From Acidobacteriota bacterium (GTDB taxonomy: Bacteria; Acidobacteriota; UBA6911; RPQK01; JAJDTT01), in NCBI GenBank assembly GCA_022827025.1, contig JAJDTT010000212.1, positions 1-35,010 of the forward strand: a stretch of DNA of 35,010 nt, given 5' to 3'. The notes under the pieces are model-generated. The model did not search any database. It was given only the letters and a program-made list of their open reading frames with translations, and was not told the origin of the DNA. This document shows, in pieces, positions 11,235 through 33,235 of the stretch. The position numbers and the translations under genes are program-made. Numbering within the stretch: the stretch's first letter is position 1; the number at the start of each line of letters is the position of its first letter.

Positions 11235-11243
11235 CTTCCCGCA

Positions 11244-12167
11244 TCAGAGAACCCCCAGCCCTTCCAGGTGATCCCGCAGGACCTCCATTTCCCCGTCGGA
11301 CAGGGAGTAATGGGGTTTGCGTCTCCACCGCCCGGCGACGCCGTAGATCTCCAGCATGCCGTGCAGGCCCGCGTCGAACCCTCCCTGCAGTTTCGCCAGG
11401 AAGTCGAACAGCGGCATGTCACAGGTCTGGATCACCTCTCTGGCCTGATCCAGGTCCCCCTCCTGAATGGCGGACCAGTATCGGCGGGCGATCCGGGGAC
11501 GGAAGCCGATATAGGTCGACATGTATCCGTCGCAGCCGTACGGATGCAGGTCCAGGTGATTCTGCTTGTGACCGCCGGAGAAGACCGCCCATTGCTCGTG
11601 CACCAGCAGGCACATGCGCCGTGCAAACTGGCCGAGGAAGTCGTTCTTGATGGCCACGATCCCCTCGACCTGCTCCACCAGGACCTTCAGGGTCTCCAGT
11701 CCGAAGTCGCTCCCCCGGGGGATGAAGAGATTGGTCACCAGCATCACCGGGATCTCCCGGGCCACGGCGCCGTAGTGTTCCACCAGGGTCCGGGTCGTGC
11801 ATGAAGCGGCCCAGTCGGGCGGGAGCACCATCATGACGTCGGCGCCCATATCGCGGACATGCCGGGCGAAGTCCACCGCACGGCTCGTGGAGTGACGGCG
11901 GTCCGCGGCCACCACCAGGGCGCGTCCGGCGGTCTGCTCGGCGGTGACGCGGGTGACCTCGGCAATCTCGGAATCGCTCAGGATGTGGAAGTGACTGTCC
12001 CCTGCCGTGAGGAGCACGGTGCCGGCCCCGTTTTGGATGTTGCGCTCGATGTGGTTTCTGAGACCGTCGGTGTCCACACTTCCATCTCGGTGAAACGGGG
12101 TCCGGATCGATCCGAAGGGGCCGGTCAGCGCCGAGCGGATCTCCTGTCGAGTCCACTGTCGATTCAT
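11244..12167 (-). CDS. Dihydrodipicolinate synthase/N-acetylneuraminate lyase-family aldolase, divergent
   Basis: 307 aa from ATG 12167, whose ATGA overlaps the symporter stop. The Schiff-base lysine is present: Lys174 in GIVAIKNDF. Two family signatures are altered: the YNxP tyrosine is replaced (VMLVTNLFIP, Thr145), and the GTTGE loop reads LLTAGDSHF. The active site therefore differs from DapA and NanA, as in other DHDPS-like subfamilies acting on keto-acid sugars, hydroxyproline intermediates and similar compounds. A role in lysine synthesis is unlikely. It is the last gene of a dehydrogenase-symporter-aldolase operon, consistent with uptake and cleavage of a small acid or sugar acid (inference). 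Confidence 0.82.
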   Translation of the reverse strand: MNRQWTRQEIRSALTGPFGSIRTPFHRDGSVDTDGLRNHIERNIQNGAGTVLLTAGDSHFHILSDSEIAEVTRVTAEQTAGRALVVAADRRHSTSRAVDFARHVRDMGADVMMVLPPDWAASCTTRTLVEHYGAVAREIPVMLVTNLFIPRGSDFGLETLKVLVEQVEGIVAIKNDFLGQFARRMCLLVHEQWAVFSGGHKQNHLDLHPYGCDGYMSTYIGFRPRIARRYWSAIQEGDLDQAREVIQTCDMPLFDFLAKLQGGFDAGLHGMLEIYGVAGRWRRKPHYSLSDGEMEVLRDHLEGLGVL

Positions 12168-13702
12168 GGAGTGAGCTCCCTCTTCCGAAAGTCCCTGGCC
12201 CCCACCCACGGGGCGCCGACGCGCCGGAAGAAGGACACGCGGCGGCGAATCTCCTCTGCAGAGGGCCGGTCCAGGTGGCTGATCAGAATCCCCACGAGGC
12301 AGATGCCCGGCATCAGGTAGACGTAGATCCAGCGGGCCCAGACGGGGTACGGAACGACCGGATCGGCCAGCACGTTGGCGTAGATGGCCACGGCCAGACC
12401 CAGAGTCCAACCCAGCAGCAGACAGGCGGTGGCGGCCCGCCGGCTCGCCTTCCACCAGAGGAATCCGAAGACGCAGGGGAAGAACATGGCCGCGAAGAGG
12501 GTGTTCCCGAACAGGTTGATGACGACCAGCAACTTGCCCAGCAGAGTCGTGCAGAGCAGGAGAGTGATGAGGCCCATGACCAGCGTCAGCTTGCGCCCGA
12601 CCCGCAACTGGTCCGCGTCGGTGGCGTCGGGCCGGAGCCATCCCTTGTAGAAGTCACGGACCATCATGGCCGAGGTCGTGTTCCAGATGCTGGACATGGT
12701 GGTCTGGCAGACGGCGAAGAGCATGGCCAGCATCAGTCCGCGGACGCCGGGTCCCAAAAAGAGGTTGATGGCTCCACCCACGGCCTGATCCGGATCCTCC
12801 AGGCCCGAATGTTGTCCGTGATAGACGAGCGTGGCCACCTGGCCGCAGGCATAGAGCAGGGTCGTGGCCAGGGCGGCGATGCCCACCGCGGCGAAGGCGG
12901 TCTTTTCGCTTCGGGCCGCGAACATCCGCTGCCCGTACCAGGGCGCCAGGGGATAGCACAGGAGAATGACCACGTTCAGAGTGACGATGAAATGGAGGGG
13001 TAGAACGGGGTCGGGATCCACGGATCCGTAGGAGTGGAACAGCGGTTCCGGCGCAGCGTACTGGAGAGCGCTGATGGCCAGGATCGGCAGCACCACTACG
13101 GTGACCACCAGAGACGCGGTGTCGGTGAAGGCCACCGAGATCAGGCCGCCGGCCCAGGTGAAGATGAGGACGGTGGTGCTGATGACGAGGGCGGTCCAGA
13201 CCAGGGTCCGGTCCGCCGTGATCCAACCCGGCACCAGCGCCCCCGACGGTGCAAGGCCCAGGGCCGAGGAGAAGGTCTTGCTGGTGGCGATGAGGTAGCC
13301 CGAGGAGAAGAGGGTCAGGATCACCGTGGTGACCAGGCTGACGGCCCGGCGCAATCCGAGGGAGTACCGGGCCTCGAACATTTCGGCGATGCTCACCGCC
13401 TGCAGCCGCTGCCAGCGGCGCGCCACCAGCAGTCCGTAGCTGCCGAGTCCGGTGATGAAAATCAGGCAGAGCCAGGCGGCGCGGGGCCCGGCGGTGTAGC
13501 TGATGCTCCCGAACCAGATCATGGTGGAGGGGTTGAACTCGGTCATCACCAGCGTCCCCACCAGGGCGAACATCCCCAATTGCCTGCCGGCGACGGTGTA
13601 GTCCAGCGAGGTGCGGACACGGCGCGACACCCAGAGTCCGTAGCCGAGGGCGCCGAGGGCGTAGAACGCCACGATGCCCAGGTCGATCCAGTTCCCGCTC
13701 AT
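12164..13702 (-). CDS. Sodium:solute symporter (SSS family)
   Basis: 512 aa integral membrane protein with about 13 predicted hydrophobic segments. The SSS signature occurs near the N-terminus: SLDYTVAGRQLGMFALVGT followed by FNPSTMIWFGSISYTAG. It should carry a small solute into the cell with sodium. Substrates of SSS proteins include sugars, amino acids, proline, pantothenate and sialic acid. The neighbouring aldolase of the DHDPS/NanA superfamily makes a sugar acid or keto acid plausible (inference). The start at 13702 is 9 bases from the end of the dehydrogenase gene (6-bp gap) and the stop overlaps the aldolase start. The cytosolic C-terminal tail (RRVGAPWVGARDFRK) is encoded by DNA resembling the local hairpin repeat. 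Confidence 0.9.
   Translation of the reverse strand: MSGNWIDLGIVAFYALGALGYGLWVSRRVRTSLDYTVAGRQLGMFALVGTLVMTEFNPSTMIWFGSISYTAGPRAAWLCLIFITGLGSYGLLVARRWQRLQAVSIAEMFEARYSLGLRRAVSLVTTVILTLFSSGYLIATSKTFSSALGLAPSGALVPGWITADRTLVWTALVISTTVLIFTWAGGLISVAFTDTASLVVTVVVLPILAISALQYAAPEPLFHSYGSVDPDPVLPLHFIVTLNVVILLCYPLAPWYGQRMFAARSEKTAFAAVGIAALATTLLYACGQVATLVYHGQHSGLEDPDQAVGGAINLFLGPGVRGLMLAMLFAVCQTTMSSIWNTTSAMMVRDFYKGWLRPDATDADQLRVGRKLTLVMGLITLLLCTTLLGKLLVVINLFGNTLFAAMFFPCVFGFLWWKASRRAATACLLLGWTLGLAVAIYANVLADPVVPYPVWARWIYVYLMPGICLVGILISHLDRPSAEEIRRRVSFFRRVGAPWVGARDFRKRELTP
12195..12225 (-). repeat. Possible degenerate hairpin repeat inside the symporter gene
   Basis: On the minus strand this reads GTCGGCGCCCC then GTGGGTG, resembling the 27-bp repeat with the loop shortened and the right stem altered. 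It encodes VGAPWVGA, close to VGAPLVGA given by an intact copy in the same frame. Weak: GC-rich coding sequence could produce this by chance. Confidence 0.35.
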
Positions 13703-17919: not shown

Positions 17920-20900
17920 TCAAAATCCCGAACCCCGCTCCAGAAACAGGAACAGGTCCACCAGGTTCTGCGTGGTCATGGCCTCCAGCAGGTCTTCGGG
18001 CATGATGGAGATCTGGGAGGTCCGCCGGTCGGTGACGAGGTTTTGGGGAATCTCGATTCTCTCTCCGGAGGCGTCGATGAGGGTCAACGTTTCGTCGTTT
18101 TCATCCGCCAGCATTCCGGTCAACGTCTCGTGTCCCTTCGCCTCGACGATGAGCGCCGTGTACTGGTCGGAGATGACCTTGGAGGGGAACATGATGGCCT
18201 CCAGGATCTCGGAACGGCGGAAGCGCTTGACCGCCGTCGACAGGTCGGGTCCCCCGCCCCGGCCCTCGCTGCCGAACACGTGGCAGTTGGAACACTTGGC
18301 CCGGTGGAAGACGGCCCGGCCCCGCTCCGCGCTCCCCCTCTCGTAGGCCCCGGGATCGAACTCCAGGTAGAGGCTCAATTCCTCGAAACTCATCTGCGTG
18401 ATCCGTGATCGCTCGGGAGGAGGCTCTCCGCTGATGAGCTCCAGGATCCGCTCCGCCCGTTTCCGCGCCTGCTCCGCCTCCCGCTCTTCGGCCCGGGACC
18501 GCTCGTCCGGCGGAAGCAGGTCCAGGACGTCTTCCCAGAGCCGGGTGATGTAGCCGTGCATGCTGGCCGCTCCCGGCATCTGCCATCCCCGGTCGAACCA
18601 CTCGACCACGGCGTTCCGCTGATCCCCGCTCCACCCCTGCTTGATGGATCGAAGCGCGTAGACCGTGTGGATCTGGTCGGCCTGGGACTTTTCCGGCTTC
18701 AGTTCCCGGAGCAGCGCTTCGATGGCGCCCGGCGTCTGCAGGAACCCCAGGAGCGTTTCCAGCTCCCGGTTCACCAGAGGGCTTTCCGTGGGATAGAGAT
18801 CCAGCAGCCGGGCGCCGAGACGGGAGGCGATTGCTCCGCGTCCCGGGGCCTCGGGCGCCGGGTCGCGGAGGAAGGCCAACTGGCAGATTCGGAGGTAGGC
18901 GAGTCGAATCTCTCCGGTCATGGGTTGGCGGCCGTACTCCAGGATCTTCTCCAGGACGGCGTTCCAGTCCGGACCCGGGTTCCGGACCCGGATCAGGGCC
19001 AGAAGGCCCTCCAGGGCGGCTCGCGGCCGATCCTGCAAGTTGCCGCTCAGGACCCACGAGGTCCAGAGTCCCGCGTCCATCCGCTCCAGCGCCAGCCTTG
19101 CGGCGTGGCGGACGAACCGGTCGGAATGGTCCATGAGGCGGTACACGCTCCGCGCCAGCGCCTGCGGATCCGGCACGGATGAATCGGAACTCAATCCGGC
19201 CCGGAGCAGGGATTCTGCGGCCCGCCTCGCCACCAGGGGATCGGAGTCGCCCAGCCGCTCCTGCAGGCTCGACGAGACCTGGTGCCGCGGATGGGTCCCC
19301 AGCAGCAGGACGGCGGCCGCTCGGACCTTCGGGTCGTCATCTCCGGACAGCTCGTCCAGTAGCTCCGGGCCAGGCGCCGGCCCGAGAGTCTGAAGCAATT
19401 CCAGGGCGCGGACGCGTTGCCGGGACGGGGACGCCCGGTCGCGGGCAACTCGGATCAGATCCGGTTCCCAACGGGTTCCCAGTTCGGACTTGACCCGGGT
19501 CGTGGCCAGCTTGCCCCAGGCGGACCGGTGCATGGGCTGGGTCAGGGCCTTGCGGACGCCGGAGCCGGTTCCCGCGGAGGACTCGGCCGCCGCGCCGGTG
19601 TAGCGGACCCGGTAGAGCCCGCCGCTGGTGGAGCGTCCCCCCGTGGAGAAATAGAGGAACCCGTCGGGACCGACGTCCAGGTCGGTCACGTTCAAGGGCT
19701 CCCCCGAGACGAAGTCCTCGCCGGATGAGATGTAGGTGGCTCCGGTCGGCTCCGGAAAGCTGACCCGGATGCGCCCGCGGGACCAGTCCCCCAGAAAGAG
19801 GGCGCCGTGATATTTCCGGGGGTAGGTATGGTGCAGGTAGAAGGCGATTCCCACCGGCGAGCCGCGTCCCAGGCTCTCGACGGCGGGGAGCGAATCGGGG
19901 TAGTGGCCGGGGAACTTGCCGGATCCCGTTCGCCACCCGTAGTCTCCTCCGGGGACCGCGTGAAGGACCCGGATGGGCCGGTACCAGGGGAGTCCGAAGT
20001 CCCACTCCATGTCCGAATCGAAGGTGAAGAGTTCCCCCTGCGGGTCCAGGGCGAAATCGAAGGCGTTCCGGAATCCGGCGCTGAATTGGGTCCACCGGTT
20101 GCCGGACAGATCCAGCCGGTGGATGGTGCCCGCCGGCACCCGGATGGAATTGGCGTGGCCCCGCGGATCCAGGTAACGCTCCAGGAGATGGTCCTCCTGG
20201 AGACCCCGGGATGGGGAGCCGGGGTCGACGGTCACGTCGGGGTAGGCGTAGTTGCCGTAGAGCAGGTACAGGTCGCCGTCCATTCCGGTCAGGATGGCGT
20301 GCGGTCCATGCTCTCCGATGCGTCCCCGGCTGGCGGCGATCAGGGTGGTGGAGTCGGCCTGGTCGTCGCCATCTTCGTCGACCAACCGGTAGAGTCCGGC
20401 TCCTTCGGGGCCGTTGGATTGCACCAGCAGGTCTCCGGAGCCCAGGTAGTGCATCCCGTGCGCTCGCTGGACCCGGTTCGAGAAGTCCCGGACTCCTTCG
20501 AACCGGCCGTCTCCATCCTCATCCGCCAGAATGTGGATGCCCCCGTGCTCGCGGGCCACGACCGGCCTGCCCCGGTGGTCGAAGGTCAGGTTGACCAGTG
20601 AGCCCAGCAGTTCGTCGGTGGCCACCTGCTCCACCTGGAAGCCCGGAGCGGCCCGAAACCGCTCCTTGCCGCGCCGGGTCCGGCCGGTGGTCCTGGCGGA
20701 CTTGATCTCGATGTCCTTGAACAGGACCCGCATGGGCGGCCCGGTGTGCAGTTGGAGGGCGATGATTCCCGATCTCGACCCCTCCGGATCGGTCAGGTCG
20801 CACACCAGGTGACCGTTGAGGATGAGGCGGACCCGGCGCCCTTCGCAGATGATCTCGTACCGGTTCCATCCCGTCAGGTCGGCGCGGGCGTTGATGGCCG

Positions 20901-21363
20901 CCTTCTCCTCGGCACTCAGTTTCTTCCAGTAGTCCATCATGCCGCGCTTGCCCTCGTCGTAGAGCATGCCGAAGTAATTCGCCTCGGCGATGTCGGCCTG
21001 ATAGCCCTTGACCACGTGGTTGGGATGCTGCTCGCTGCGGAACTGGATTCCGCTGTTCCCCCGGATCAGCTTCACCGAGACCCGCAGGGTGAAGTCGCTG
21101 AAGCTCCGGGTGGTGGAGAGAAAACTGTTGCGCTCGATCTGCACCTCCTCCGTGGAGCCGACGATCACTCCGTCCTCCACTTTCCAGAGTTTCGAGTCGC
21201 CGATCCAACCGGTCAGATCCCGGCCGTTGAAGAGCGGCACGAATCCCTGCCTGTCCTGCGACGCGCGGGCCGGAACGGAGAAAAGGAGAAGCGAGAACAA
21301 GGATGCGGCGGCGAGCCTGGGGAAAGCCTGCCACATGCCGGAACTGAGGCTCATTGACTTCAT
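17920..21363 (-). CDS. DUF1080 / PVC-type membrane-bound dehydrogenase / HEAT repeats / cytochrome c fusion
   Basis: 1147 aa exported protein. A signal peptide (cleavage after PARA, about residue 34) leads into DUF1080 (about 38-220; VPLFNGRDLTGW, IQFRSEQHPN, FKDIEIK), a concanavalin-like fold of putative 3-keto-disaccharide hydrolases. Next is a beta-propeller dehydrogenase-like module (about 230-590; LTFDHRGRPVVAREHG, DEDGDGRFEG, FLGDWSRGRI), then HEAT-like helical repeats (about 610-960). A C-terminal cytochrome c domain carries the heme motif CSNCH at 1024-1028, with a candidate axial Met in SISIMPEDLLEAM. It would oxidise sugars or polyols in the periplasm and pass electrons to heme c (inference). 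The start has a strong AAGGAGG eight bases upstream. Promoter-like boxes lie just upstream. Confidence 0.88.
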   Translation of the reverse strand: MKSMSLSSGMWQAFPRLAAASLFSLLLFSVPARASQDRQGFVPLFNGRDLTGWIGDSKLWKVEDGVIVGSTEEVQIERNSFLSTTRSFSDFTLRVSVKLIRGNSGIQFRSEQHPNHVVKGYQADIAEANYFGMLYDEGKRGMMDYWKKLSAEEKAAINARADLTGWNRYEIICEGRRVRLILNGHLVCDLTDPEGSRSGIIALQLHTGPPMRVLFKDIEIKSARTTGRTRRGKERFRAAPGFQVEQVATDELLGSLVNLTFDHRGRPVVAREHGGIHILADEDGDGRFEGVRDFSNRVQRAHGMHYLGSGDLLVQSNGPEGAGLYRLVDEDGDDQADSTTLIAASRGRIGEHGPHAILTGMDGDLYLLYGNYAYPDVTVDPGSPSRGLQEDHLLERYLDPRGHANSIRVPAGTIHRLDLSGNRWTQFSAGFRNAFDFALDPQGELFTFDSDMEWDFGLPWYRPIRVLHAVPGGDYGWRTGSGKFPGHYPDSLPAVESLGRGSPVGIAFYLHHTYPRKYHGALFLGDWSRGRIRVSFPEPTGATYISSGEDFVSGEPLNVTDLDVGPDGFLYFSTGGRSTSGGLYRVRYTGAAAESSAGTGSGVRKALTQPMHRSAWGKLATTRVKSELGTRWEPDLIRVARDRASPSRQRVRALELLQTLGPAPGPELLDELSGDDDPKVRAAAVLLLGTHPRHQVSSSLQERLGDSDPLVARRAAESLLRAGLSSDSSVPDPQALARSVYRLMDHSDRFVRHAARLALERMDAGLWTSWVLSGNLQDRPRAALEGLLALIRVRNPGPDWNAVLEKILEYGRQPMTGEIRLAYLRICQLAFLRDPAPEAPGRGAIASRLGARLLDLYPTESPLVNRELETLLGFLQTPGAIEALLRELKPEKSQADQIHTVYALRSIKQGWSGDQRNAVVEWFDRGWQMPGAASMHGYITRLWEDVLDLLPPDERSRAEEREAEQARKRAERILELISGEPPPERSRITQMSFEELSLYLEFDPGAYERGSAERGRAVFHRAKCSNCHVFGSEGRGGGPDLSTAVKRFRRSEILEAIMFPSKVISDQYTALIVEAKGHETLTGMLADENDETLTLIDASGERIEIPQNLVTDRRTSQISIMPEDLLEAMTTQNLVDLFLFLERGSGF

Positions 21364-22441: not shown

Positions 22442-24919
22442 GTGGCGGCCTCGGGGCAGGGTTTGAGAAAAGGACTCCGGTACGCGCTATGGGCCTTGCT
22501 GGTCCTGGCGATCGGGTCCTTCCTGGCCTTCCGCCATCTGGCGCGGCGGGCGCTGCCCCAGCTCGACGGGACCCGCACCGTCGCGGGACTCCAACACCCG
22601 GTTGAAATCGTGCGCGACCGGTGGGGCGTTCCCCACATATACGCCTCCAGTGACGAGGACGCCTATTTCGCATTGGGCTACGTCCACGCCCAGGACCGCC
22701 TCTTTCAACTGGACCTCAGCCGCCACGCCGGCCAGGGACGCCTGGCGGAGCTGGTGGGAGAACCGGGCCTGAGTCTGGATCTCCTCTTTCGGACCATCGA
22801 CCTCCACGGTCCCACCCGGCGCATGTTGGAGCGGGCCGGTGCGCCGGTCCGCTCGGCGGCACGGGCGTACGCCCTCGGCATCAACACCGCCGTCGCCGAC
22901 CTGGACGGCGCCCTGCCTCCGGAGTTCACCCTGTTGAACCATGAGTTCAAGCCGGCCGAACCGGACGACTTCGTGGGGTTGATCGGGCTCATGACGTGGC
23001 AGTTGAACCTGTCATGGGAGATGGACCGCTACTTCGAGCAATTGGCGGCGCGCATGGGAGAGGAGCGGGCGCTGGAGCTCTTCCCATTTCGCCAGGGAGG
23101 GTCGCCGGCGGTGCATCCGCCGGGCGGGGCGGCGTCACCGGCATCGCCGCCATCCGCAATGGAATCGGCTGTGATTTTCGATCGCCTGGGAACACTGATC
23201 CCGGCCCCCGCAAGTCATCCCTTTCCAGGGCGGTCTTTTGCGTTTCTCACCGGAACGGGAGGCAGCAACAGTTGGGTCGTTTCTCCCCGGCGCAGCGTCA
23301 CGGGGCACGCCATCCTGGCCAACGATCCTCACCTGGGCTTTCCCCTGCCGCCCATCTGGTATCAAGCGCGTCTCCGCGCCCCCGGGTTTGACGTGGCCGG
23401 AGTCACCCTTCCCGGCCTTCCCTTCGTGGTGATCGGACGAAACCGGCACATCGCTTGGGGGCTGACCAACGTGATGCAGGACGCGGCCGATTTTTTCGTG
23501 GAAAGGCTGGACGACGAGCGTCCCGGCCAGGTCATGTTCCGCGGCAAGTGGGTGGACCTGGAAAAAAGAGTGGAGACGATCCGGGTGAAGGGTGGAGAAG
23601 CCCGGTCACTGGAGGTGCTGTCCACACCTCACGGGCCTCTGGTCAACCACCTGCTCCCCGAGATCCAGAAGCCGGTCTCCTTCCGTTGGACCCTGCATGC
23701 GGCCGAACACGCCAACGAGATAGAGGGTTTGTGGCTCCTGAACCGGGCGCGGAACTGGGAGGAGTTTCGCCGGTCCATGTCCCGGTTCGGCACCGCGGCC
23801 CAGAACGTCGTCTACGCCGACCGGGAGGGACACATCGGCATGCAGACCGTCGGCGCCTTTCCCCGCCGGGATGGCCGAAACGAGGGGACCCGGTTCCGCG
23901 TGGGATGGGACGGCAGCGAGGAGTGGAACGGGTTCCATCCCTTCGAGGAGAATCCGGTCAGTTTCGACCCGCCCCGGGGATGGTTGGCCTCGGCAAACAA
24001 CCCCACGGTGGAGCCGCCCAGCCCCTTCTACATCTCCGCCTGGTGGGAGCCGGTAGACCGGATCAGCCGAATCGGAGAGGTTCTGACGTCTCGGGACAGG
24101 CTCTCGGTGGAAGACATGGAACGCCTGCAGAGCGATACTCTACTGCTGGCGGCCCGCGAGTTGACTCCCCTGGTGTTGGAGGCTTTCGATCCGCCTCCTC
24201 CCGCCGGCGACCCGGTAGGAGAAGCGCTCGAAATATTGCGCGGCTGGGACTACGTGATGGACGCGGGCCAGGCCGCGCCTACGTTGTTCGCCGTCTTCCA
24301 CCGGCAATTGTTCGAGGAGATCTTCCAGGACGAGCTGGGGGAAGACCTGATCCGGGCGTACCGTTCCCGCGGAAATCTCCCCGACACCATGGTTCGAACG
24401 GCCTTGACGCGGGGAGCCGGACACTGGATCGACCGGATCGACACGCCGCGCGTCGAGAAGCTGCCCGAAATCATTCAAGCCGCCTTTCGGAAGGCCGTAA
24501 CACGCGTCTCTACCCGGTGGGGTCCCGATCCCAAGAAATGGGTCTGGGGAGACGTCCACACCCTGACCCTGGTCCATCCCCTGGGCCTGGCCTCCCGGAT
24601 CCTGGGATGGTACTTCAGCCTGGGGCCATTCCCAGTTTCCGGCTCCAGCGGCACCGTGAAAAAGATGGGCTACCGGTCGGACGATTTTCGGGTCTTGTCC
24701 GGAGCCTCCGTTCGTCAGATCACCGACTTCTCGGAACCGGACCGCTTGCTGACGGTGATTCCCGGCGGGCAGTCGGGAATTCCGGCCTCGCCCCACTACG
24801 GCGACCTGGCGGACCTTTGGCTGACGGGACGCTACCATCCGCTCCCGTTGAACCGCGAGGCGATCCGGGAAGCCCACCACCTGGTCCTTCGACCCGGGGC
24901 GGCCGCTCCCGGCGAGTAG
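22442..24919 (+). CDS. Penicillin acylase-family N-terminal-nucleophile hydrolase
   Basis: 825 aa, the usual length of an Ntn acylase precursor that self-cleaves into two chains. An N-terminal hydrophobic segment (13-31) exports or anchors it. The alpha-chain pattern includes IVRDRWGVPHIYA and ALGYVHAQDRLFQLDLSR. The predicted nucleophile is Ser275 in TGTGGSNSWVV, after which the beta chain starts; NDPHLGFPLPPIWY and NRHIAWGLTN supply further conserved residues. The family cleaves amides such as beta-lactam side chains, acyl-homoserine lactones and N-acylated amino compounds; no substrate can be assigned here. Start is GTG 22442 without a clear ribosome binding site; a start a few codons downstream is possible. 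Short gap to the NIPSNAP gene suggests one transcript. Confidence 0.88.
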   Translation: MAASGQGLRKGLRYALWALLVLAIGSFLAFRHLARRALPQLDGTRTVAGLQHPVEIVRDRWGVPHIYASSDEDAYFALGYVHAQDRLFQLDLSRHAGQGRLAELVGEPGLSLDLLFRTIDLHGPTRRMLERAGAPVRSAARAYALGINTAVADLDGALPPEFTLLNHEFKPAEPDDFVGLIGLMTWQLNLSWEMDRYFEQLAARMGEERALELFPFRQGGSPAVHPPGGAASPASPPSAMESAVIFDRLGTLIPAPASHPFPGRSFAFLTGTGGSNSWVVSPRRSVTGHAILANDPHLGFPLPPIWYQARLRAPGFDVAGVTLPGLPFVVIGRNRHIAWGLTNVMQDAADFFVERLDDERPGQVMFRGKWVDLEKRVETIRVKGGEARSLEVLSTPHGPLVNHLLPEIQKPVSFRWTLHAAEHANEIEGLWLLNRARNWEEFRRSMSRFGTAAQNVVYADREGHIGMQTVGAFPRRDGRNEGTRFRVGWDGSEEWNGFHPFEENPVSFDPPRGWLASANNPTVEPPSPFYISAWWEPVDRISRIGEVLTSRDRLSVEDMERLQSDTLLLAARELTPLVLEAFDPPPPAGDPVGEALEILRGWDYVMDAGQAAPTLFAVFHRQLFEEIFQDELGEDLIRAYRSRGNLPDTMVRTALTRGAGHWIDRIDTPRVEKLPEIIQAAFRKAVTRVSTRWGPDPKKWVWGDVHTLTLVHPLGLASRILGWYFSLGPFPVSGSSGTVKKMGYRSDDFRVLSGASVRQITDFSEPDRLLTVIPGGQSGIPASPHYGDLADLWLTGRYHPLPLNREAIREAHHLVLRPGAAAPGE

Positions 24920-25346: not shown

Positions 25347-28300
25347 ATGCGAATTCGGAAACAGGTTTCAGGCATCGGTCCGATCCCGCCAATCGTCGTA
25401 GCGGCGGTCCTGTTCGGTCTGCTGCTGCCGTCGACGGTAGCGGCCCAGACCATGAACAGCGACCTCACCGGGGTGGTGCGCGACGCCACGGGAGGCGTGC
25501 TTCCCGGGGTGACCGCCACCGCCACCAACGAAAACAACCGGGCCCAGCGATCGGCCGTCACCGACGACGTGGGCGTCTACCGCCTCGCCGGCATACAGCC
25601 CGGTACCTACACCGTGGAGGCGGAGCTGACGGGATTCAAGCGCTTCGTGCAGACGGGAATCGTCGTGTCCCCGGGACTGCTCAGACGCGTGGACATCGTT
25701 CTGGATGTCGGGGACGTCACTGACTCGGTGATCGTCACCGATGAGGTTCCGGTCCTCCAGACCAGCAACGCCACGATCTCCACGGCTCTTCCCTCCCAGG
25801 TCCGGGACAAGCCCATCGCCAGCATGACGCGAGGCGCGCTACTGGGAGAACAGATGATCTGGGCGGCAGGTTCGGCAGCGGGCGGCGTCTACGGGTTCGT
25901 CGGCAACCGCGCGGACATGAACCAGTACAACGTCGAGGGCATGCAGTACAACTTCATCAGCTCGTCGGTCTCCAACAACATCATCGAGGAAGTCAGCGTG
26001 GTGCTGAGCAATGCGCCCGCGGAGTACGCCCGTCCGGTGACGCTCAACGCCACCTTGAAGAGCGGGACCAACGAATACCATGCCGAATATTGGATGGCGG
26101 GCGTCAATCCCTGCCTGAACGCGTTGAGGAGCCCGTTCTCCCCGGCCCGAGCCAGCCGGGCGCCCTGTGTCACCGCCAAGCGGCAGTTCTTCAATGTCGG
26201 CGGTCCGATTCTCAAGGACCGGGTGTTCTTCTTCTACTCCTGGGCTCGGCCGAATTCATTCTCCAACCTGTCCAACTCCCGGCCTCAGTCCTTCCCCAGC
26301 CTGCGCATGCAGGGTGGAGACTTCTCCCTGTATCCGTCCAAGATCATCGATCCCACCACCGGGGAACAGTTTCCCGGAAACGTCATTCCCGCCGGCCGCA
26401 TCAGCCCCGTGGCCCAGGCGATCATGAGCGACTTCATGGGGAGTTCGGTCAACTACCTCGGCGCTCCGGAGAGCTACACCAACAACGTCCAGCAACTTGC
26501 CGGCCGGTACCGTCAGGACAACGACCACAACATCAAGACCGATTTCAACGTCGGCGGCAAAGACAGCTTCTCCTTTCATGCGGTGCGTCACAAAGTCCTC
26601 AGCAACACGGATCGTCACCACCCGAGCACCGGGACCAGCAACGCCCTGCACACCACCTTGCAGGACAACGTCTTCAACTGGCAGTCGGGCGTGACCCACA
26701 GCCATGTCTTCGCACCGGGCGTGATCAACCAGATGCGACTGGGCGTGACCCGTTTCGTCTACATCCACCGGCAGTTGAAGGACTGGGAAGGTGATGCCGA
26801 GAGCGCGCAGGGTCCGGAGTTCGTCAACCGCTGGGGCCTCCAGGGGGTTGCGGTTCCCGACCTTTCGGGAATGCCCCATATCAATATCGGCGGCTGGCTT
26901 CGAACCTATTTCGACAACGAGAGCGCCACCTACGATTCGCGTTATTCGTTCTTCAACGACCTCTCGGTGACCGAAGGCCGCCACAACATCAAGATCGGCA
27001 TGTCGGCGGTCAAACTGCTGGAAGACGGGCCGGCGCGGGGGAACTACTTCGGCGCCTTCAGTTTCAGCAACATCTTCACCGGAGCCCAGGTGGCCGGCGA
27101 CCCCATGACCTGTGCGGCCCCGGCCGTGTGCGGGGACGCTTTCGCGGACTTCCTGCTGGGATTGCCGAGTTCCTCGACCCGCTATCAGCCCCGTTCCGTC
27201 ATCGCCCGGCGGAAATGGGAGTGGGGCGCGTTCATCCAGGACGATTGGAACGTCACCGACAAGTTGAACCTTTCCTATGGGCTGCGCTGGAGCCGCTACA
27301 CGGTCCCTTACGACAAGAACGGAATGTTCTACAACTTCGATCCGGACTCGCTCTCCATCGTGGTGCGGGACGAGTTCGCCCGGGAGCGGATCCATCCCTC
27401 CTGGCCGACGCACACTTTCCCGGTCATTCTGGCCAGCGAGGCCGGGTTCCCGAGCAAGCTGATCCAAGGCTCCAACAACTGGCAGCCTCGCGTCGGATTC
27501 GCCTATCGAATCACTCCGAGTTCGGTGCTTCGCGGAGGTTGGGGGATCTACAACGGTGCTTCCCGCTTCCTGCCGCTCCAGGCGTTCGGTCCCTTCGTAG
27601 TCTCCGAAAGCTTCACCAATGAAGTCCGTCCCGGCAGCGGCACGGGCGCCTTGTACTCCTGGCCGCACGCATTCCCCACGGCCTCGGACGTCATCACCGT
27701 CAGCAGCGCCTTCGGGTTCGCCAAGGACTATCACGAAGCGTGGACTCACAACTGGAACGTGACCTATGAACGGGAAATCGCCACCAACTGGGGGGTGCAG
27801 CTCACGTATCGGGGAGTGAAGAGCAACGATCTGCTCTGGGGCCGGAATCTGAACGCCATTCAGGCCAGCGGCACGCCGTGGAGCCGGGACCGGTTGCCTT
27901 GGCCCAACCTCTCCAGCGTGAACTTCGTCGAGAACGGAGGAGACAGCATCTACAACGGGATCGAGTTCCGTTTGACTCATCCCTGGGTCAACGGCCTGCA
28001 CTCGCAGCTCTCGCTGACCAAGCAGTGGTCCGGGGGCCTGAACGCGCCCATCTGGGCCACCGATCAGGGGATCACCTGGCCCGAGTATCCCTTCGACCTG
28101 GACCGCGACCGGGTGGCGATGGCGACACCCTGGCCCAGCCACGACATCCTCTGGAACTTCATCGCGGAGATGCCGTTCGGCCGCGGGAAGCGTTTCTTCG
28201 CCGACCTGAACCCGGTGATGAATGCGATCGCCGGAAACTGGACCTTCACGGGGGCCTTCTCCTGGAGGTCGGGAATCGGGCTGACGCCCTACTGGAGCGG

Positions 28301-28715
28301 AGTCGACTTTGCCAACTACGGAAGGTTCGGCGGCCGTCCCAACCAAACCTGCAATGACCCGAACGGGGGGCCCAAGGCCGTCCGTGGTCAATGGTTCAAT
28401 ACGCGGTGCTATGAGGTGCCCAGCGCCGGATCCCTCGGCAATGCGCAGGTCAACTCCATCGTCGGGCCCGGAGCCTGGATCTTCAATCTGAACCCGTACA
28501 AGGAGTTCGAGCTCAACTTCCTGCGCGAAGGCGCCCGGATCCAGCTCGGAGCCAACATCGTCAACGTCCTCAATCATCCCGTTTACGGCAACCCCAACAC
28601 CACCGTGAACAGCGCCACCGCCGGCCAGATCCGCGGATCGGGGAACGCCCGGGGGATGTGGCACGATTCGCTGGGTCAGCGCAAGGTCGTGATGGACATG
28701 AGGTTCATCTTCTGA
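25347..28715 (+). CDS. Oar-like TonB-dependent outer-membrane receptor
   Basis: 1122 aa. Signal peptide with cleavage after VAA (about residue 33), then a carboxypeptidase-regulatory-like beta-sandwich (37-120; DLTGVVRDATGGVLPGVTAT, GVYRLAGIQPGTYTVEAELT), a plug region and a large beta-barrel. The C-terminus ends with Phe (MDMRFIF), the usual outer-membrane barrel signal. Proteins of this Oar/Cna-B-like type are numerous in Acidobacteriota and are thought to import large substrates such as oligosaccharides using TonB energy. No SusD partner follows; the next gene is a lipoprotein glycosidase-like protein. No strong ribosome binding site is seen, but this ATG begins the signal peptide. Confidence 0.93.
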   Translation: MRIRKQVSGIGPIPPIVVAAVLFGLLLPSTVAAQTMNSDLTGVVRDATGGVLPGVTATATNENNRAQRSAVTDDVGVYRLAGIQPGTYTVEAELTGFKRFVQTGIVVSPGLLRRVDIVLDVGDVTDSVIVTDEVPVLQTSNATISTALPSQVRDKPIASMTRGALLGEQMIWAAGSAAGGVYGFVGNRADMNQYNVEGMQYNFISSSVSNNIIEEVSVVLSNAPAEYARPVTLNATLKSGTNEYHAEYWMAGVNPCLNALRSPFSPARASRAPCVTAKRQFFNVGGPILKDRVFFFYSWARPNSFSNLSNSRPQSFPSLRMQGGDFSLYPSKIIDPTTGEQFPGNVIPAGRISPVAQAIMSDFMGSSVNYLGAPESYTNNVQQLAGRYRQDNDHNIKTDFNVGGKDSFSFHAVRHKVLSNTDRHHPSTGTSNALHTTLQDNVFNWQSGVTHSHVFAPGVINQMRLGVTRFVYIHRQLKDWEGDAESAQGPEFVNRWGLQGVAVPDLSGMPHINIGGWLRTYFDNESATYDSRYSFFNDLSVTEGRHNIKIGMSAVKLLEDGPARGNYFGAFSFSNIFTGAQVAGDPMTCAAPAVCGDAFADFLLGLPSSSTRYQPRSVIARRKWEWGAFIQDDWNVTDKLNLSYGLRWSRYTVPYDKNGMFYNFDPDSLSIVVRDEFARERIHPSWPTHTFPVILASEAGFPSKLIQGSNNWQPRVGFAYRITPSSVLRGGWGIYNGASRFLPLQAFGPFVVSESFTNEVRPGSGTGALYSWPHAFPTASDVITVSSAFGFAKDYHEAWTHNWNVTYEREIATNWGVQLTYRGVKSNDLLWGRNLNAIQASGTPWSRDRLPWPNLSSVNFVENGGDSIYNGIEFRLTHPWVNGLHSQLSLTKQWSGGLNAPIWATDQGITWPEYPFDLDRDRVAMATPWPSHDILWNFIAEMPFGRGKRFFADLNPVMNAIAGNWTFTGAFSWRSGIGLTPYWSGVDFANYGRFGGRPNQTCNDPNGGPKAVRGQWFNTRCYEVPSAGSLGNAQVNSIVGPGAWIFNLNPYKEFELNFLREGARIQLGANIVNVLNHPVYGNPNTTVNSATAGQIRGSGNARGMWHDSLGQRKVVMDMRFIF

Positions 28716-28764
28716 GGCCTGCGCCCGGTGACTGATGACCGGTGAATTGGCGTGTCTTCCAAAC

Positions 28765-28800
28765 GGCGGGCCGTGTCTGTTTCAGACGGCTTGGCCCGCC
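28765..28800 (+). terminator. Hairpin after the TonB receptor
   Basis: GGCGGGCC (28765-28772) and GGCCCGCC (28793-28800) form a perfect 8-bp stem around a nested GTCTG-TTT-CAGAC stem. No U-tract follows. It could stop or attenuate transcription between the receptor and the glycosidase-like gene. Confidence 0.5.
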
Positions 28801-28850
28801 AGCCTGTCCCAAATTCCCAGTCCGAGGTTCCCGACTTGAAACGTAGTCCG

Positions 28851-31109
28851 ATGCAAGGGAGTCGAACGCGGGCCTGTTCGTGGGCCGGGGTCCTTCTGCT
28901 TCTAGTCCCCTTGGCGGGGTTCCTTCCAGGCTGTACTCAGGCTCCAACCTCGCCCGTGAGTGTCGTGGTCGGCCCTTCGGCTCCCGAGCTGGAGCGGTTC
29001 GCGGCCAGCGAGCTTTGCGGCTACCTGGACAAGCTCTTCGGCCTTCAGGTCCGCCCGGTCACCGAAGCGCCCGCCTCCGGCGAGGCAGTTCTGCTGGTGG
29101 GCTCGCCTGACACCAACCCCCTTCTCGCCAAGGCGCTCTCCGGGGACGCCTTTCCCGAGCTGACCGATCAAGGCCTGGTGCTGCGCACCATCGATCTCGA
29201 AGGCCGGACCGCGCTTGTGGCCGGCGGCGGAAGTCCTCGCGCCACCCTGTGGGCCGTCTACGAACTGGCCGAGCGCTGGGGTGTCCGTTACCTGATCGAC
29301 CGCGACGTCATCCCTCCCAAGAGGCCGTTCCAGCTTCCCCAACTGGATGTGGTGATGGAACCGGTCTTCCTGGTGCGGGCCCATCCCACCATCCAGGACC
29401 TGGTGGCCAGCATGGAGGGCTGGGGCATCTCGGACTTTAGGCCGCTGATCGACCAGTTGGCCAAGATGAAGTTCACCCGGATCAACGTCTACGCCTTCGG
29501 GTGGCAGCCTTACCTGCACTGGGAGCACAAGGGGATCGAGCGAAGCTCCGCCCATCTCTGGTACGGCTACCACTATCCCATCACTCCGGACACCATCGGC
29601 CGGTCCCTCTTCGGAGACGTGTCTCAGTACTGGAATCGCGATCTGCCCCTCACCTCCTCCTATCCCCAGTTGATCGAGGCGGGACAGCAACTGGTCCGGA
29701 ACCTGATGGACCATATCCACAAACGGGGCATGGAGACCGCCTATGCCGCTCCGGTGATCGACTTCCCGCCGGAGTTCGCGCCGCTGCTCGACGGCGCCGA
29801 GCAGAGCGCGCAACTGAGCGGAATGTCGGTGGTTCCGGGGCAGGATACGCCTCTGGAGGACCCCGAGCTCTTCGGCCTCTCCTCCGCTGTCCTGCGAGCG
29901 ACCCTCAACAGTTATCCCAAGACCGACGTGGTCACCGTGTTCATGCCGGAGTTCCGGCAATGGATCGGAGAATACGAACGGGCGTGGGAGGCCCTCGACG
30001 AGAAGTACGGAGTCGGGGAGGTGCTCTCCCTGGACCGGATCACCTCCGCCGTGCAGCATCGAAAGGGATCGGAAGGCAGTCCCGAGCGGGCGCTCAACGA
30101 GCTCAAGGGGGACATCGCCAATCTCTCCTTCTTCGACCGCCTCCTCCGCGATCCTGAAGTATTGAAAGGGACCACGAGGTCCCGGATTCGCGTGAACTGT
30201 TTCGGCGTCTCGGAAGAGCTCTATCCGATTCTGGACCGGATCTGGCCGGCGGACTGGACTCTGGAGAGCATGCCCTCCAATCAGCCGGTCCACCTGCTGC
30301 GGCGGATCGAAATCCTCAAGGACCTGCCGTCCCAGGTCCTGGGCATCATGAACCTGACCCTGGACGACGACAACATCGGCGTCATGCCCCAGCTCACCAC
30401 CAACTCTCTGTACGAGATCATCCAGGTCATGCACCGTCACGGTTGGAAGGGAGTCATCGCGCGGGAGCGGTTCCCCGGAGACCATGACTGGCCCCTGGCC
30501 TACCTGGCGCGCGCGTCCTGGAATCCGGAGATCACTCCGGACGCGGTGGCGCGGGATCAATTGAAGGCGGTCTGCGGCGAGGGGTGCGTCGAGGACATGC
30601 TGGCGGCCTACCATGAAGTGGAGGCGGTGACCATCGCTCTGGCCAGGTCGGCCTTCGCGTTCCCGGCAGATTGGCCTCCGTCGACGTCCTTTTCGCCGGG
30701 CGGCATGTTGATGAAATACTGGTACCTGAAGGACCGCGCCATGCCGCCCTACGTGGACGAGGCCCATGAGGGCTATTCGAGGGCTCTGGAGTCGGCCAGG
30801 AAGGCCCGCGACAAGTCGACTCCCGAGGGCCGATGGTACGTGGACTACTGGGTCGGCCGCCTGGAGTTCGCCCAGCAGTACGTGGCGGCAGTGCGGGCGG
30901 TCCAACGGTCCGCCGCCGCGTTCCGTTCCGGCGACCGCGCCGGCGCCGTCCGGGAAGCGGACCAGGCCATGGCCGTTCTGCGCAAGGGCCTGGAAGCCTA
31001 TGTTCCGGTGGTGCGCAACCGGACCGACCTGGCGGCCATCGCCTTGGTCAACCAGTCGTACCGGCAACTGTTCCAGAGGCGCTGGTCGGTGAAGACTTGG
31101 GGCTACTGA
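28851..31109 (+). CDS. Lipoprotein with alpha-glucuronidase-type N-terminal domain, glycosidase-like
   Basis: 752 aa from ATG 28851. TTG 28836 is an alternative with GAGG a short distance upstream; the GTG at 28752 would place the terminator-like hairpin in coding sequence. Lipobox in LAGFLPGC with Cys28. Residues about 38-160 resemble the GH67N/GH20b domain (ELERFAASELCGYLDKL, GSPRATLWAVYELAERWGVRYL). The rest looks like a TIM-barrel region plus a helical C-terminus (IQDLVASMEGWGISDF, NVYAFGWQPYLHWEHKG), but the glycoside hydrolase family and catalytic acids are not recognised. It is probably anchored to a membrane surface and processes an oligosaccharide taken up by the neighbouring receptor (inference). 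Confidence 0.75.
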   Translation: MQGSRTRACSWAGVLLLLVPLAGFLPGCTQAPTSPVSVVVGPSAPELERFAASELCGYLDKLFGLQVRPVTEAPASGEAVLLVGSPDTNPLLAKALSGDAFPELTDQGLVLRTIDLEGRTALVAGGGSPRATLWAVYELAERWGVRYLIDRDVIPPKRPFQLPQLDVVMEPVFLVRAHPTIQDLVASMEGWGISDFRPLIDQLAKMKFTRINVYAFGWQPYLHWEHKGIERSSAHLWYGYHYPITPDTIGRSLFGDVSQYWNRDLPLTSSYPQLIEAGQQLVRNLMDHIHKRGMETAYAAPVIDFPPEFAPLLDGAEQSAQLSGMSVVPGQDTPLEDPELFGLSSAVLRATLNSYPKTDVVTVFMPEFRQWIGEYERAWEALDEKYGVGEVLSLDRITSAVQHRKGSEGSPERALNELKGDIANLSFFDRLLRDPEVLKGTTRSRIRVNCFGVSEELYPILDRIWPADWTLESMPSNQPVHLLRRIEILKDLPSQVLGIMNLTLDDDNIGVMPQLTTNSLYEIIQVMHRHGWKGVIARERFPGDHDWPLAYLARASWNPEITPDAVARDQLKAVCGEGCVEDMLAAYHEVEAVTIALARSAFAFPADWPPSTSFSPGGMLMKYWYLKDRAMPPYVDEAHEGYSRALESARKARDKSTPEGRWYVDYWVGRLEFAQQYVAAVRAVQRSAAAFRSGDRAGAVREADQAMAVLRKGLEAYVPVVRNRTDLAAIALVNQSYRQLFQRRWSVKTWGY

Positions 31110-31156
31110 CCGATATCCTTCCTTCGGCGCCGGCTCATTTCAAGAGCGGGGGATCC

Positions 31157-32095
31157 ATGGTCAAACGACGAGATTTCATGCGATATGTTGCCAGTGGAGC
31201 TCTGGTGAACTTCCTGGATCCCGGCGCCGCCCTCGGACATGGCGCGGCGGCGGAGCCGAGACTGACCCTCCGGCCCTATGCGTGGGAAGGCCCCTATGCC
31301 GAATTCCGCAACCAAGGGGCGCGGCATGACTGGCGCCTGTGTGCGGCGTTGCGGGCTCCCTGGATGAGCCCGGAGGAGCGCCTGATCCTCAGAACCTCCG
31401 AGATCGTGGGCTACGAACAGGCGTACCTTTACGACGATCATTTCCCGCCCTACCAGCCGGAGGGCAGGGGAAAAGGGTATCGCCACATTCCTTTCGAGTG
31501 GCGTCAAACGAGTGGTGACAAGGAACTTTCGGCGGACTGTCCGGTTCCCGGACACGGCCGTTTCTGGCTCGATCTGTCGGCCCGGAGCGACTACCTGGAA
31601 ATCCGCCTGGGGATCCGGAACGGCCTCGACCGTCCCATGGGGAAGGTGGACTGGCATTTCTGCGTGGTAGGGCTGGAGAGCCGTTTCGCGGACTCGGATC
31701 GGAAGCGAACCTACCTTTTCGACGAAGGCCGGCTGCGCACCTTCAACGAGTTGAGCGGCGGCCCCAAGATAGAACTGTTCCATGTTCAGGGAGCCGGCGG
31801 GTTCGTGCCCGTTGGACACGAAATGCTCCCTGTGAGTCCCGCCGTCGCCGAAGCGCCCCTCGTGATCGTCCAGTCCCCGGACCGGCGCCACGTCGCGGCC
31901 CTGGCCTTTGAGCGGGCCTACTCCATCTACGGCGACCCCGTCGGGAACAAGTGCTTCCACGCCGATCCCTATTTCGGTCCTCTCACCGAGGCGGGCGAGG
32001 AACGCCGCATCAAGGGCCGGCTCTACGTCATGCGAGGGACGCCGCAGGATGCTCTCGACCGTTACCGGAGCGACTTCCAATCCGGCGCGGCGTAG
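31157..32095 (+). CDS. Tat-exported protein of unknown function
   Basis: 312 aa. Residues 1-32 form a twin-arginine-like signal (VKRRDFMRYVASGALVNF...AAA), so the product is probably periplasmic. The mature part has alternating hydrophobic strands and conserved-looking aromatics (RPYAWEGPYAEF, HDWRLCAALRAPWMSPEE, GRFWLDLSARSDYLEIRLGI, KVDWHFCVVGLESRF), suggesting a beta-sandwich. I do not recognise the family and assign no activity. GGGGGATCC lies just upstream of ATG 31157 and the signal then begins at residue 1. It is 47 bp after the glycosidase-like gene and 87 bp before a Gfo/Idh/MocA oxidoreductase, so a role in the same carbohydrate pathway is likely. Confidence 0.7.
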   Translation: MVKRRDFMRYVASGALVNFLDPGAALGHGAAAEPRLTLRPYAWEGPYAEFRNQGARHDWRLCAALRAPWMSPEERLILRTSEIVGYEQAYLYDDHFPPYQPEGRGKGYRHIPFEWRQTSGDKELSADCPVPGHGRFWLDLSARSDYLEIRLGIRNGLDRPMGKVDWHFCVVGLESRFADSDRKRTYLFDEGRLRTFNELSGGPKIELFHVQGAGGFVPVGHEMLPVSPAVAEAPLVIVQSPDRRHVAALAFERAYSIYGDPVGNKCFHADPYFGPLTEAGEERRIKGRLYVMRGTPQDALDRYRSDFQSGAA

Positions 32096-32182
32096 GCGAC
32101 GATATCGCTGAAAAACGGTGGCGGGAACGCGTCGATCCTTCTTGACGACCCCTTCTGACTCTGAACGACGGGAGTGTCTCCA

Positions 32183-33235
32183 ATGAGCCAACGAGTTCGA
32201 TTCGGCATGCTCGGCACGGGCAACTTCTCGCCCTTTCTGGCCCAGTACATCAACGAGGTGGCGGACGTAACGGCCATCTGCGATCCGAATCCGGAAGCCA
32301 GGGCCCGGTTTCTGGAAATGACGGGCCGGGACGTTCTCCAGTACGAAGACTACCGGCGGCTGTTGGAGGAGGCGGAGATCGACGCCGTGGCCCTGACGGG
32401 GCCGAATCATCTCCACAGGCCCATGGCGGTGGCCGCCGCCGGATGCGGCAAGCACGTGTTCTGCGAAAAAGCCATGGCGCCCACGGTGCCGGACTGCTGG
32501 GAGATGGTGCGCGCCTGCCGAAGCGCCGGAGTACGCCTGATGGTGGGGCACAAGCGCCGGCTGCGTCCTCCCTGGGCCCGGATGATCCAGCTTCGGGAGC
32601 TCTTGGGGCCGGTCCACGCCATGTCCACCATCGGATACTTCGACGCGCGTCAAGATGGCTTTCAGGGCTGGTGGACCCGGCAGGCCGAAAGCGGAGGAGT
32701 CTTGGCCTGCTCGGGGGTCCACGAACTCGACTGGATGCGGGCCATGTGCGGCGACGTGGTGGCGGTGAGCGCCGTGTGCGGGCCTGGGATAGACTCCCGC
32801 TATGACTTCTCCGACTCGATCCACGTCCTGCTCCGCTTCGCGTCGGGAGCGACCGGCTTCCTGGGGGTGTCCCTGTCCTATCCCCTGACCCGGTACCGGC
32901 AGGTCTACGGCGCCGACGCCGTCTGCAGCCGGGGGGGAATGCGGCTGGTCACGTCGTTTCAGCACGTCGACCTCTACTGGAAGCTGCTGACGGAATCCGA
33001 CGAGCACCATGAGCGATTCGAGGAGCCGGGCGGCAACCCCGTCGGCGCCGAGGAGGCCCTGCGGAAGGAGACTCGGGAATTCGTCCGCTGGATCACCGAC
33101 GGGACCGACCCCTGTCTGACCTGGCGGGAAGGGCTCCGGTGCGTCGAAGTGATCGAAGCCGCAAACCGGTCCCAGGGCAGGGAAGGCGAGTGGATCCGGC
33201 TTCCACTCTACCCGGATTTGGAAACAGAGCATTAG
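32183..33235 (+). CDS. Gfo/Idh/MocA-family NAD(P)-dependent oxidoreductase
   Basis: 350 aa. Rossmann entry RFGMLGTGNFSPF (6-18) and the EKP-like motif HVFCEKAMAP (91-100, catalytic Lys96) are clear; His180 and Asp183 in GVHELDWMRAM match the family's C-terminal active-site segment. Family members oxidise sugars, inositols or related alcohols, and some act in glycoside cleavage by oxidation/elimination. No signal peptide, so cytoplasmic, unlike its two secreted upstream neighbours. ATG 32183 is preferred to GTG 32174 since GGGAG at 32169-32173 is nine bases from it. The 27-bp hairpin repeat follows 43 bp after the stop. Confidence 0.88.
   Translation: MSQRVRFGMLGTGNFSPFLAQYINEVADVTAICDPNPEARARFLEMTGRDVLQYEDYRRLLEEAEIDAVALTGPNHLHRPMAVAAAGCGKHVFCEKAMAPTVPDCWEMVRACRSAGVRLMVGHKRRLRPPWARMIQLRELLGPVHAMSTIGYFDARQDGFQGWWTRQAESGGVLACSGVHELDWMRAMCGDVVAVSAVCGPGIDSRYDFSDSIHVLLRFASGATGFLGVSLSYPLTRYRQVYGADAVCSRGGMRLVTSFQHVDLYWKLLTESDEHHERFEEPGGNPVGAEEALRKETREFVRWITDGTDPCLTWREGLRCVEVIEAANRSQGREGEWIRLPLYPDLETEH

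Follow-up and report, generated by a model that had tools for sequence, protein, structure and literature searches.

The window analysed here, a stretch of 35,010 nucleotides, is contig C278 of an Acidobacteriota genome (G000; 5.33 Mb, 98.8% complete). Towards its end lies a run of genes that encode an Oar-type outer-membrane receptor, an exported protein with an N-terminal GH67N domain (GH, glycoside hydrolase), a protein predicted to be exported by twin-arginine translocation (Tat) and a Gfo/Idh/MocA oxidoreductase. All four open frames were confirmed at their coordinates on the + strand (Table 1), and together with the Pfam domains they bear out the gene set described in the original prediction. 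The cassette is real and conserved within its genus, and its central GH67N protein, the main subject of this report, is probably an unclassified glycosidase. The receptor and GH67N genes are separated by 36 or 135 bases, depending on whether the latter starts at an alternative GTG at 28752 or at the codon used in Table 1, and the following gaps measure 47 and 78 bases. A fifth gene, for an FG-GAP/ASPIC-UnbV protein, continues the run to the contig end, which is also the window end, and occupies the same place in genome G012 and at locus L058.

The gene set was found in all four genomes of the genus that were examined (G000 and G011 to G013). A sponge origin is a guess, which draws on a bin prefix and on a study of Coscinoderma and Rhopaloeides sponges (PMC8163846). 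In the other three genomes, the GH67N protein has 92-94% identity to that of the window, and the Tat protein is present in all four. Gene order is kept at 88-95% protein identity in L057, which represents G011 and has its receptor cut by a contig end, and in L058, which represents G013; the order is also found on contig C70 of G012. Receptor orthologues are present in L057 (partial), L058 and G012. The cassette is thus more than a chance arrangement, as its gene order recurs in these genus mates. Of 14 further genomes of the order, ten show no match, and in four the match is confined to the first 216 residues. Linkage, whose absence would have spoken against the original prediction, is kept within the genus, but the complete four-gene set is found only there.

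Table 1. Genes, domains and candidate residues of the cassette and its flank, with window coordinates.
Feature	Position	Strand	Evidence
Oar/TonB-dependent-type outer-membrane receptor, 1122 aa, N-terminal carboxypeptidase-regulatory-like domain	25347..28715	+	PF25183 529.5 bits, 2.5e-158; PF13620 2.8e-16
GH67N-domain exported protein, 752 aa, unclassified glycosidase candidate	28851..31109	+	PF03648; AlphaFold2; fold matches
GH67N domain	28962..29267	+	residues 38-139, PF03648
E367 codon, candidate catalytic acid, after barrel strand 4	29949..29951	+	conservation and model strand 360-364
D506 and D507 codons, candidate base or nucleophile, after barrel strand 7	30366..30371	+	conservation and model strand 497-503
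Predicted Tat-exported protein, 312 aa, galactose-mutarotase-like super-beta-sandwich	31157..32095	+	KRRDFM near start; homologues; fold model
Gfo/Idh/MocA oxidoreductase, 353 aa	32174..33235	+	PF01408, PF22725, PF02894
FG-GAP / ASPIC-UnbV repeat protein, start codon uncertain, cut by contig end	33240..35009	+	PF13517, PF07593

The GH67N protein and its family

The GH67N domain is recognised by PF03648 at 26.3 bits against a cut-off of 24.3 (9.5e-06), and the remaining Pfam rows for the protein at E<=10 are two domains of unknown function (DUFs) at chance level (0.16 and 0.27). No Pfam or NCBIfam GH model matches the catalytic part, either in the window protein or in the 62 family members scanned, and the statement that this part belongs to no recognised family is borne out for those two libraries. 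These members make up 62 of the 73 rows of our main alignment, the window's protein included, and 46 of them match GH67N. Among 25 of the 26 families listed for them no GH catalytic model stands out; NAGLU (E 0.031) and GH20b (E 0.063) appear once each, near chance, and NCBIfam gave one chance hit. PF16126 (DUF4838) is unmatched by the window protein at E<=10 and absent among the same 25 families, while PF15979 (GH115) and PF07488 (GH67 catalytic) have no match in the window protein or in the whole genome. When PDB was searched by sequence, the best row was the GH115 structure 6nps through its N-domain only, with an E of 0.011 for the family profile and 1.1 for the single protein read from the GTG start.

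Relatives were sought in one genome per species across 84,980 species with two short patterns, a search that favours close relatives. The patterns matched 145 stretches, 90 of which encode a relative; the best 80 were kept, corresponding to 79 loci, and one candidate-scoring step considered two candidates per genome. An open frame of more than 600 amino acids is present in 76 of the 79 loci, whose record labels, which can be wrong, read Planctomycetota, Poribacteria, Hydrogenedentota, Chloroflexi, Verrucomicrobia, Acidobacteriota, Aminicenantes, Armatimonadetes and Acidimicrobiia. The 73-row alignment leaves out L057-L062 (the genus), L077, L082, L085 and L101 (long extensions) and L075, L079 and L128 (partial). 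L082 (9884-14614) holds a family member with a 1577-aa open frame, a fusion or a long C-terminal extension. Two further Acidobacteriota loci, L141 and L146, carry frames of 1005 and 1077 aa, cut in the loci, in which GH67N below cut-off is combined with Malectin and no catalytic model falls between them; judged by sequence, they may represent a further unnamed GH67N group.

The original prediction called the GH67N protein a lipoprotein. Its Cys28 stands in LPGC, the three orthologues read LPNC, LSIC and LPGC, so that two of the three differ before the cysteine, and one of the 79 relatives fits the lipobox pattern. This variation does not sustain the label; a lipoprotein is possible. No description of this GH67N family was found in the literature, an absence that stays unproven since subscription journals and bioRxiv lay outside the scope of the search.

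Nearest families, fold and candidate residues

Profiles were compared in hhalign with sets of known families drawn from Acidobacteriota genomes, namely GH115 (7 of 8 loci, without L183), GH67 (14 of 15, without L203) and DUF4838 (11 of 15, without L211, L215, L218 and L219). The whole protein matches DUF4838 at 98.8% (E 1.4e-16, 427 columns), GH115 at 95.6% and GH67 at 95.4%, and the N-domain alone gives 98.7%, 96.3% and 96.5%, respectively. The barrel alone gives 11.6-22% with DUF4838, 0-0.5% with GH115 and 0-0.4% with GH67. When the helices are added, DUF4838 reaches 45-67.3%, with 0.5% for GH115 and 12.1% for GH67 against trimmed sets, and residues 560-752 match the DUF4838 set at 0.1%. Control comparisons among the known families gave 98.0% (GH67-DUF4838), 97.3% (GH115-DUF4838) and 92.7% (GH67-GH115) for whole proteins and 57.5%, 0.8% and 0.2%, in the same order, for barrels. 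By profile, DUF4838 appears to be the nearest family by a modest margin, and this ranking rests mainly on the N-domain, since whole-protein values are high among all these families. Membership of GH115 or GH67 was rejected, as the barrel gives nothing by sequence. The proposal of a new glycosidase group holds for the libraries tested, in which no GH model matches and to which the modelled glycosidase-type barrel adds weight, but it must be read alongside a remote relation to DUF4838, which one table writes as GH163 (PF16126; PMC9870897). That relation is visible without amounting to confident membership of a known GH family.

As one special case of the glycosidase reading, the enzyme may be of hexosaminidase type and, in the manner of GH163, act on glycoproteins. 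In favour of this, DUF4838 comes closest by profile, GH20 and GH84 rank with the best fold matches, and the GH163 of B. thetaiotaomicron is described as removing N-acetyllactosamine (LacNAc) antennae from N-glycans (PMC10154615). However, the Pfam DUF4838 model finds no match, the lead of this profile over other families is small in the barrel, and no cysteine of the window protein lies at the C-x-C-x-x-C cluster that follows the Q-N-D motif in 10 of 11 DUF4838 rows, a cluster which we read from those 11 rows as defining for DUF4838. An enzyme of this type is improbable.

The glycosidase reading also draws on predicted structure. An AlphaFold2 model built from 73 sequences (predicted local distance difference test, pLDDT, 92.0; predicted template modelling score, pTM, 0.92) consists of a GH67N-like domain, a (beta/alpha)8 barrel and a helical domain. 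As we read the model, the barrel strands are 175-179, 210-213, 295-300, 360-364, 447-451, 470-473, 497-503 and 534-538, and the helices span 563-749; this strand numbering, and the pairing of E367 with D506/D507 as catalytic, is our own reading. Foldseek ranks GH138, GH20, GH115, GH67 and GH84 at E 1e-14 to 1e-10, led by the GH138 enzyme BP0997 (9.1e-15), while VIA-align gives its highest Z, 20.0, to GH115 (4zmh; 5.4 A over 558 residues, 12% identity), followed by 18.7 to GH138 and values near 17 to both GH20 and GH84, with most of the GH84 rows at 7-10 A. Identity to the best solved folds (GH115, GH138, GH84 and GH20) is 7-13%. The modelled fold would mark a glycosidase-type protein and not a substrate, because enzymes of GH138, GH20, GH115, GH67 and GH84 share the general layout.

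Catalytic acids of many barrel glycosidases lie at the ends of strands 4 and 7. At E367, 64 of the 73 rows have E and 2 have D, while 5 are gapped and 2 carry another residue; in the alignment this position corresponds to the near-invariant D of the DUF4838 Q-N-D motif. D is present at position 506 in 65 rows and at 507 in 67 (5 gapped), R at 538 in 66, and R176, Q202, K205 and N262 are kept in all 73. D183 is D in 55 rows, and Q182-D183 aligns with the N-D motif that follows the N-domain in GH115, the D of which we take to be D206 of BoAgu115A.

This alignment bears on another special case, in which the protein would be an alpha-glucuronidase like those of GH115 or GH67 and its substrates would be glycans with uronic acids. 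This case has the GH67N domain above cut-off, the highest structural Z (to GH115) and the N-D motif just described in its favour. Against it, neither PF15979 nor PF07488 matches, and the barrel gives next to nothing with GH115 or GH67, the figure for GH67 rising to 12.1% only when helices are included. Two papers describe a D206-type residue of GH115 that touches the sugar and a loop residue, D332/D303, as the likely acid (PMC3879575, PMC9063842); this loop acid, which in BoAgu115A is D332 and comes with the arginine R328, could not be placed in the window protein. There is a slim chance of such an enzyme, one that overlaps with that of the wider glycosidase reading. The uronic-acid substrate of the original prediction, drawn from the domain name, is not supported, as the GH115 barrel is unrelated by sequence and the GH67 barrel next to unrelated.

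Alternatively, the protein may be a non-catalytic glycan-binding or chaperone-like protein on a glycosidase scaffold. No member has been characterised, the neighbouring genes offer no universal enzymatic partner, and one or both candidate acids are missing from some relatives: L126 is without E367, D506 and D507, L119 without E367 and D506, and L131-L135 are unaligned at E367 and D507. The gap in L131-L135 may be an alignment fault, because these rows show D-L-E-F where strand 4 is expected. E or D at position 367 in 66 of 73 rows and D at 507 in 67, down to about 28% identity, are features that pure binding needs neither of, and a binding protein is unlikely. L126 (4386-6695) and L119 (9899-12151), in which two or three candidate acids are lost, are long-branched relatives.

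Partner proteins, paralogues and neighbours

SusD_RagB (PF07980), the SusD model searched, has no match in the whole genome, while a control Bacteroides genome gives matches. The receptor domain PF25183 has 46 matches in the same genome, several of them pieces of one frame. The absence of SusD noted in the original prediction is thus true, but as a special trait of this locus it was rejected, since a genome with 46 receptor-domain matches and no SusD_RagB is, as far as PF07980 tells, ordinarily without SusD, and the different mode of substrate capture supposed to follow from it is not borne out.

The Tat protein, whose KRRDFM we take to be the Tat motif, has no match in Pfam, NCBIfam or PDB by sequence (best E with a family profile, 0.34). 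Fourteen sequences of its family, the window's included, are 18-92% identical to it and keep E82, H95, N155, C266 and H268; these rows match no Pfam mutarotase model, with one chance-level family at E<=0.5, and a nine-row profile matches 10 of 396 genomes of the phylum. Its model is weaker than that of the GH67N protein (pLDDT 70, pTM 0.74) and fits super-beta-sandwich folds, including GalM-type mutarotases, alpha-N-acetylgalactosaminidase domains, GH38 mannosidases, cellobiose phosphorylases, PL26 lyases and the YidC periplasmic domain. Foldseek gives Slr1438 at 9e-7 and GalM-type mutarotases at 3e-6 and weaker, and VIA gives Z values of 11.7-14.4 among the 50 matches listed, with GalM 4bze at 12.2 (200 residues, 3.5 A). 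Because rival sandwich folds score equally or better, a mutarotase-like or sugar-binding role is a guess from the model. A tblastn search of the 79 loci picks up the Tat protein in L057 and L058 and in no other. The receptor lies directly upstream of the GH67N gene in L076 (37%), with fragments upstream in L075.

The oxidoreductase combines PF01408 with two C-terminal Gfo/Idh domains, and a signal sequence is not apparent by eye. It falls below every NCBIfam cut-off (best 99 bits against 355). A 3-keto-glycoside route was considered and rejected, as the BT_2158-type dehydrogenase model gives 34 bits against a cut-off of 750.

Seven proteins of G000, the window's included, have a GH67N domain or match: four lie on contig C215 (51-58% identity), one on C107 (37%) and one on C52, which is a DUF4838 protein. 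In G012 the orthologue and four close paralogues share one contig between 18,411 and 39,891, five copies within 21.5 kb, and in G013 six close copies are spread over two contigs; from the flanks in G012, C278 and C215 are probable neighbours. Also encoded on this stretch of G012 are a GDSL esterase, a protein of about 530 aa that has neither a name nor a family match, an enzyme resembling galactonate dehydratase (273 bits, cut-off 311) and an aldo-keto reductase. Further out lie a hydrolase of creatininase type, an enzyme of epimerase type and a protein that partly matches D-apionate lactonase (ApnL-like; 137 bits against 750). Dehydratase relatives, at 43-57%, are found in L067, L071 and L121. 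In a quick tree, made without bootstrap and under a long-branch warning, the close copies group together, at support 100, in a clade of 16 rows, which includes one long-branched row, the Verrucomicrobiota-labelled L063.

L063, titled Spartobacteria, has relatives of the GDSL esterase and of the unnamed 530-aa protein beside its GH67N protein, at 47% and 65% identity, respectively. The same pair adjoins the GH67N protein both in L063 (3697-8942) and in L041, which lies on C215 of G000 (9106-11544), and the sequences leave room for a possible transfer of these genes between phyla.

Genes in the loci were called with our codon-score script. Outside the genus loci this gave 130 adjacent genes, of which 98 were counted as neighbours, namely those that lie on the same strand, are at least 120 aa long and are separated by a gap of less than 1500 bases. 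In the 25 of 50 families listed, the 98 genes include 26 PQQ-type propellers, 7 DHDPS proteins, 6 class IV aminotransferases, 5 nitrilase-type proteins, 5 HpcH/HpaI aldolases, 2 Oar-type receptors, 2 Ldh_2 proteins, 2 SMP-30 lactonases and 1 GH123. A common operon across the family was not found, as neighbours vary by clade: DHDPS adjoins L131-L135 and the C107-type copies L096 and L102, and HpcH/HpaI stands mainly by Acidobacteriota rows of L094-L112, judged by sequence starts. Neighbours cluster by clade and therefore represent few independent events. Each of L131-L135, labelled Kuenenia, Planctomyces or Planctomycetota, has a PQQ-type propeller upstream and a DHDPS-like gene downstream.

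Elsewhere in the window, a penicillin amidase family protein (22442-24919) lies directly before the cassette, with an apparent homologue at the same place in G012. The - strand at 17920-21354 encodes a large protein in which a 3-keto-disaccharide hydrolase domain is combined with DUF7133, HEAT repeats and a match to cytochrome c. A separate catabolic group at 8716-13702 comprises a class III aminotransferase, an amidohydrolase, a DHDPS-family protein (97 bits at best in NCBIfam, against a cut-off of 278) and a sodium symporter; the latter two, at 11.2-13.7 kb, are on the opposite strand and outside the run.

Proposed role and comparison with known systems

We lean, by somewhat better than an even chance, towards the GH67N protein being an active exported glycosidase of a family unnamed in the libraries tested, remotely related to GH163 and GH115-like in layout, which would cut a glycan in this cassette; its activity, mechanism, flow and pathway are what we infer. 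The barrel would cleave sugar from an external glycan, with E367 as the acid and D506/D507 as base or nucleophile, and the Oar-type receptor would carry the glycan or its fragments across the outer membrane. In the periplasm, the mutarotase-fold Tat protein would act on or bind the freed sugar, and in the cytoplasm the Gfo/Idh enzyme would oxidise it to a lactone, to be followed by sugar acid, dehydration and aldolase steps. Neighbours across the family partly fit such a route (sugar, lactone, sugar acid, 2-keto-3-deoxy acid, aldolase), which supports it without proving it; those that fit are the DHDPS, HpcH/HpaI aldolase, SMP-30 lactonase and Ldh_2 genes, together with the galactonate-dehydratase-like and ApnL-like proteins close to the paralogues.

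Several observations weigh against this reading. No neighbour is common to all clades, and the commonest, the PQQ-type propeller, is not a glycan gene by name; the set of receptor, Tat protein and oxidoreductase is bound to the genus. The barrel alone scores low with every profile, whole-protein values are high among the control families too, and the 67% of barrel and helices with DUF4838 is little above the 57.5% of the GH67-DUF4838 barrel control. The candidate acids are not universal, L131-L135, L126 and L119 being the cases in point, and no activity was found reported for any family member in the literature searched. A bolder and rather doubtful extension is that the family bridges GH163 and GH115 at the level of CAZy across many phyla, and that the five or six copies dismantle one branched glycan, each cutting another linkage, together with an oxidative non-phosphorylating pathway.

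The family is present in dozens of uncultured bacteria (79 loci), and the tested annotation libraries see only its short N-terminal domain. If it is a true glycosidase, enzyme counts miss some of the glycan breakdown in Planctomycetota, Poribacteria and Acidobacteriota. In sequence, the family may also provide a step that links GH163 with the GH67/GH115 enzymes, and the candidate residues named here (E367, D506/D507) are open to test.

Compared with DUF4838/GH163, the protein shares a GH67N-type N-domain joined to a further domain and a Q-N-D motif that aligns with E367, but it has E for D, is without the PF16126 match and the cysteine cluster, and is unrelated over residues 560-752. With GH115 it has in common the order of N-domain, barrel and helical part, the Z of 20.0 and the N-D motif after the N-domain; unlike GH115, its model has no C-terminal beta-sandwich, its barrel has no sequence relation, and identity is about 12%. 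GH138 is the top match of Foldseek (VIA Z 18.7), although identity is 10-12% and the two were compared by fold alone, and GH67 shares the PF03648 domain above cut-off but has a PF07488 catalytic domain that the window protein lacks. The Tat model fits the super-sandwich of galactose mutarotase-like proteins in both Foldseek and VIA, without a sequence match, and the YidC periplasmic domain and several glycosidase and phosphorylase sandwiches score equally or better. Unlike a SusC/SusD polysaccharide utilisation locus, the cassette has an Oar-type receptor domain in a genome without SusD_RagB (PF07980); like one, it places a receptor gene next to an exported glycan-type enzyme. The GH67N protein could already belong to a CAZy family for which Pfam has no model, and what the locus plausibly adds is a new enzyme family and not a new kind of system.

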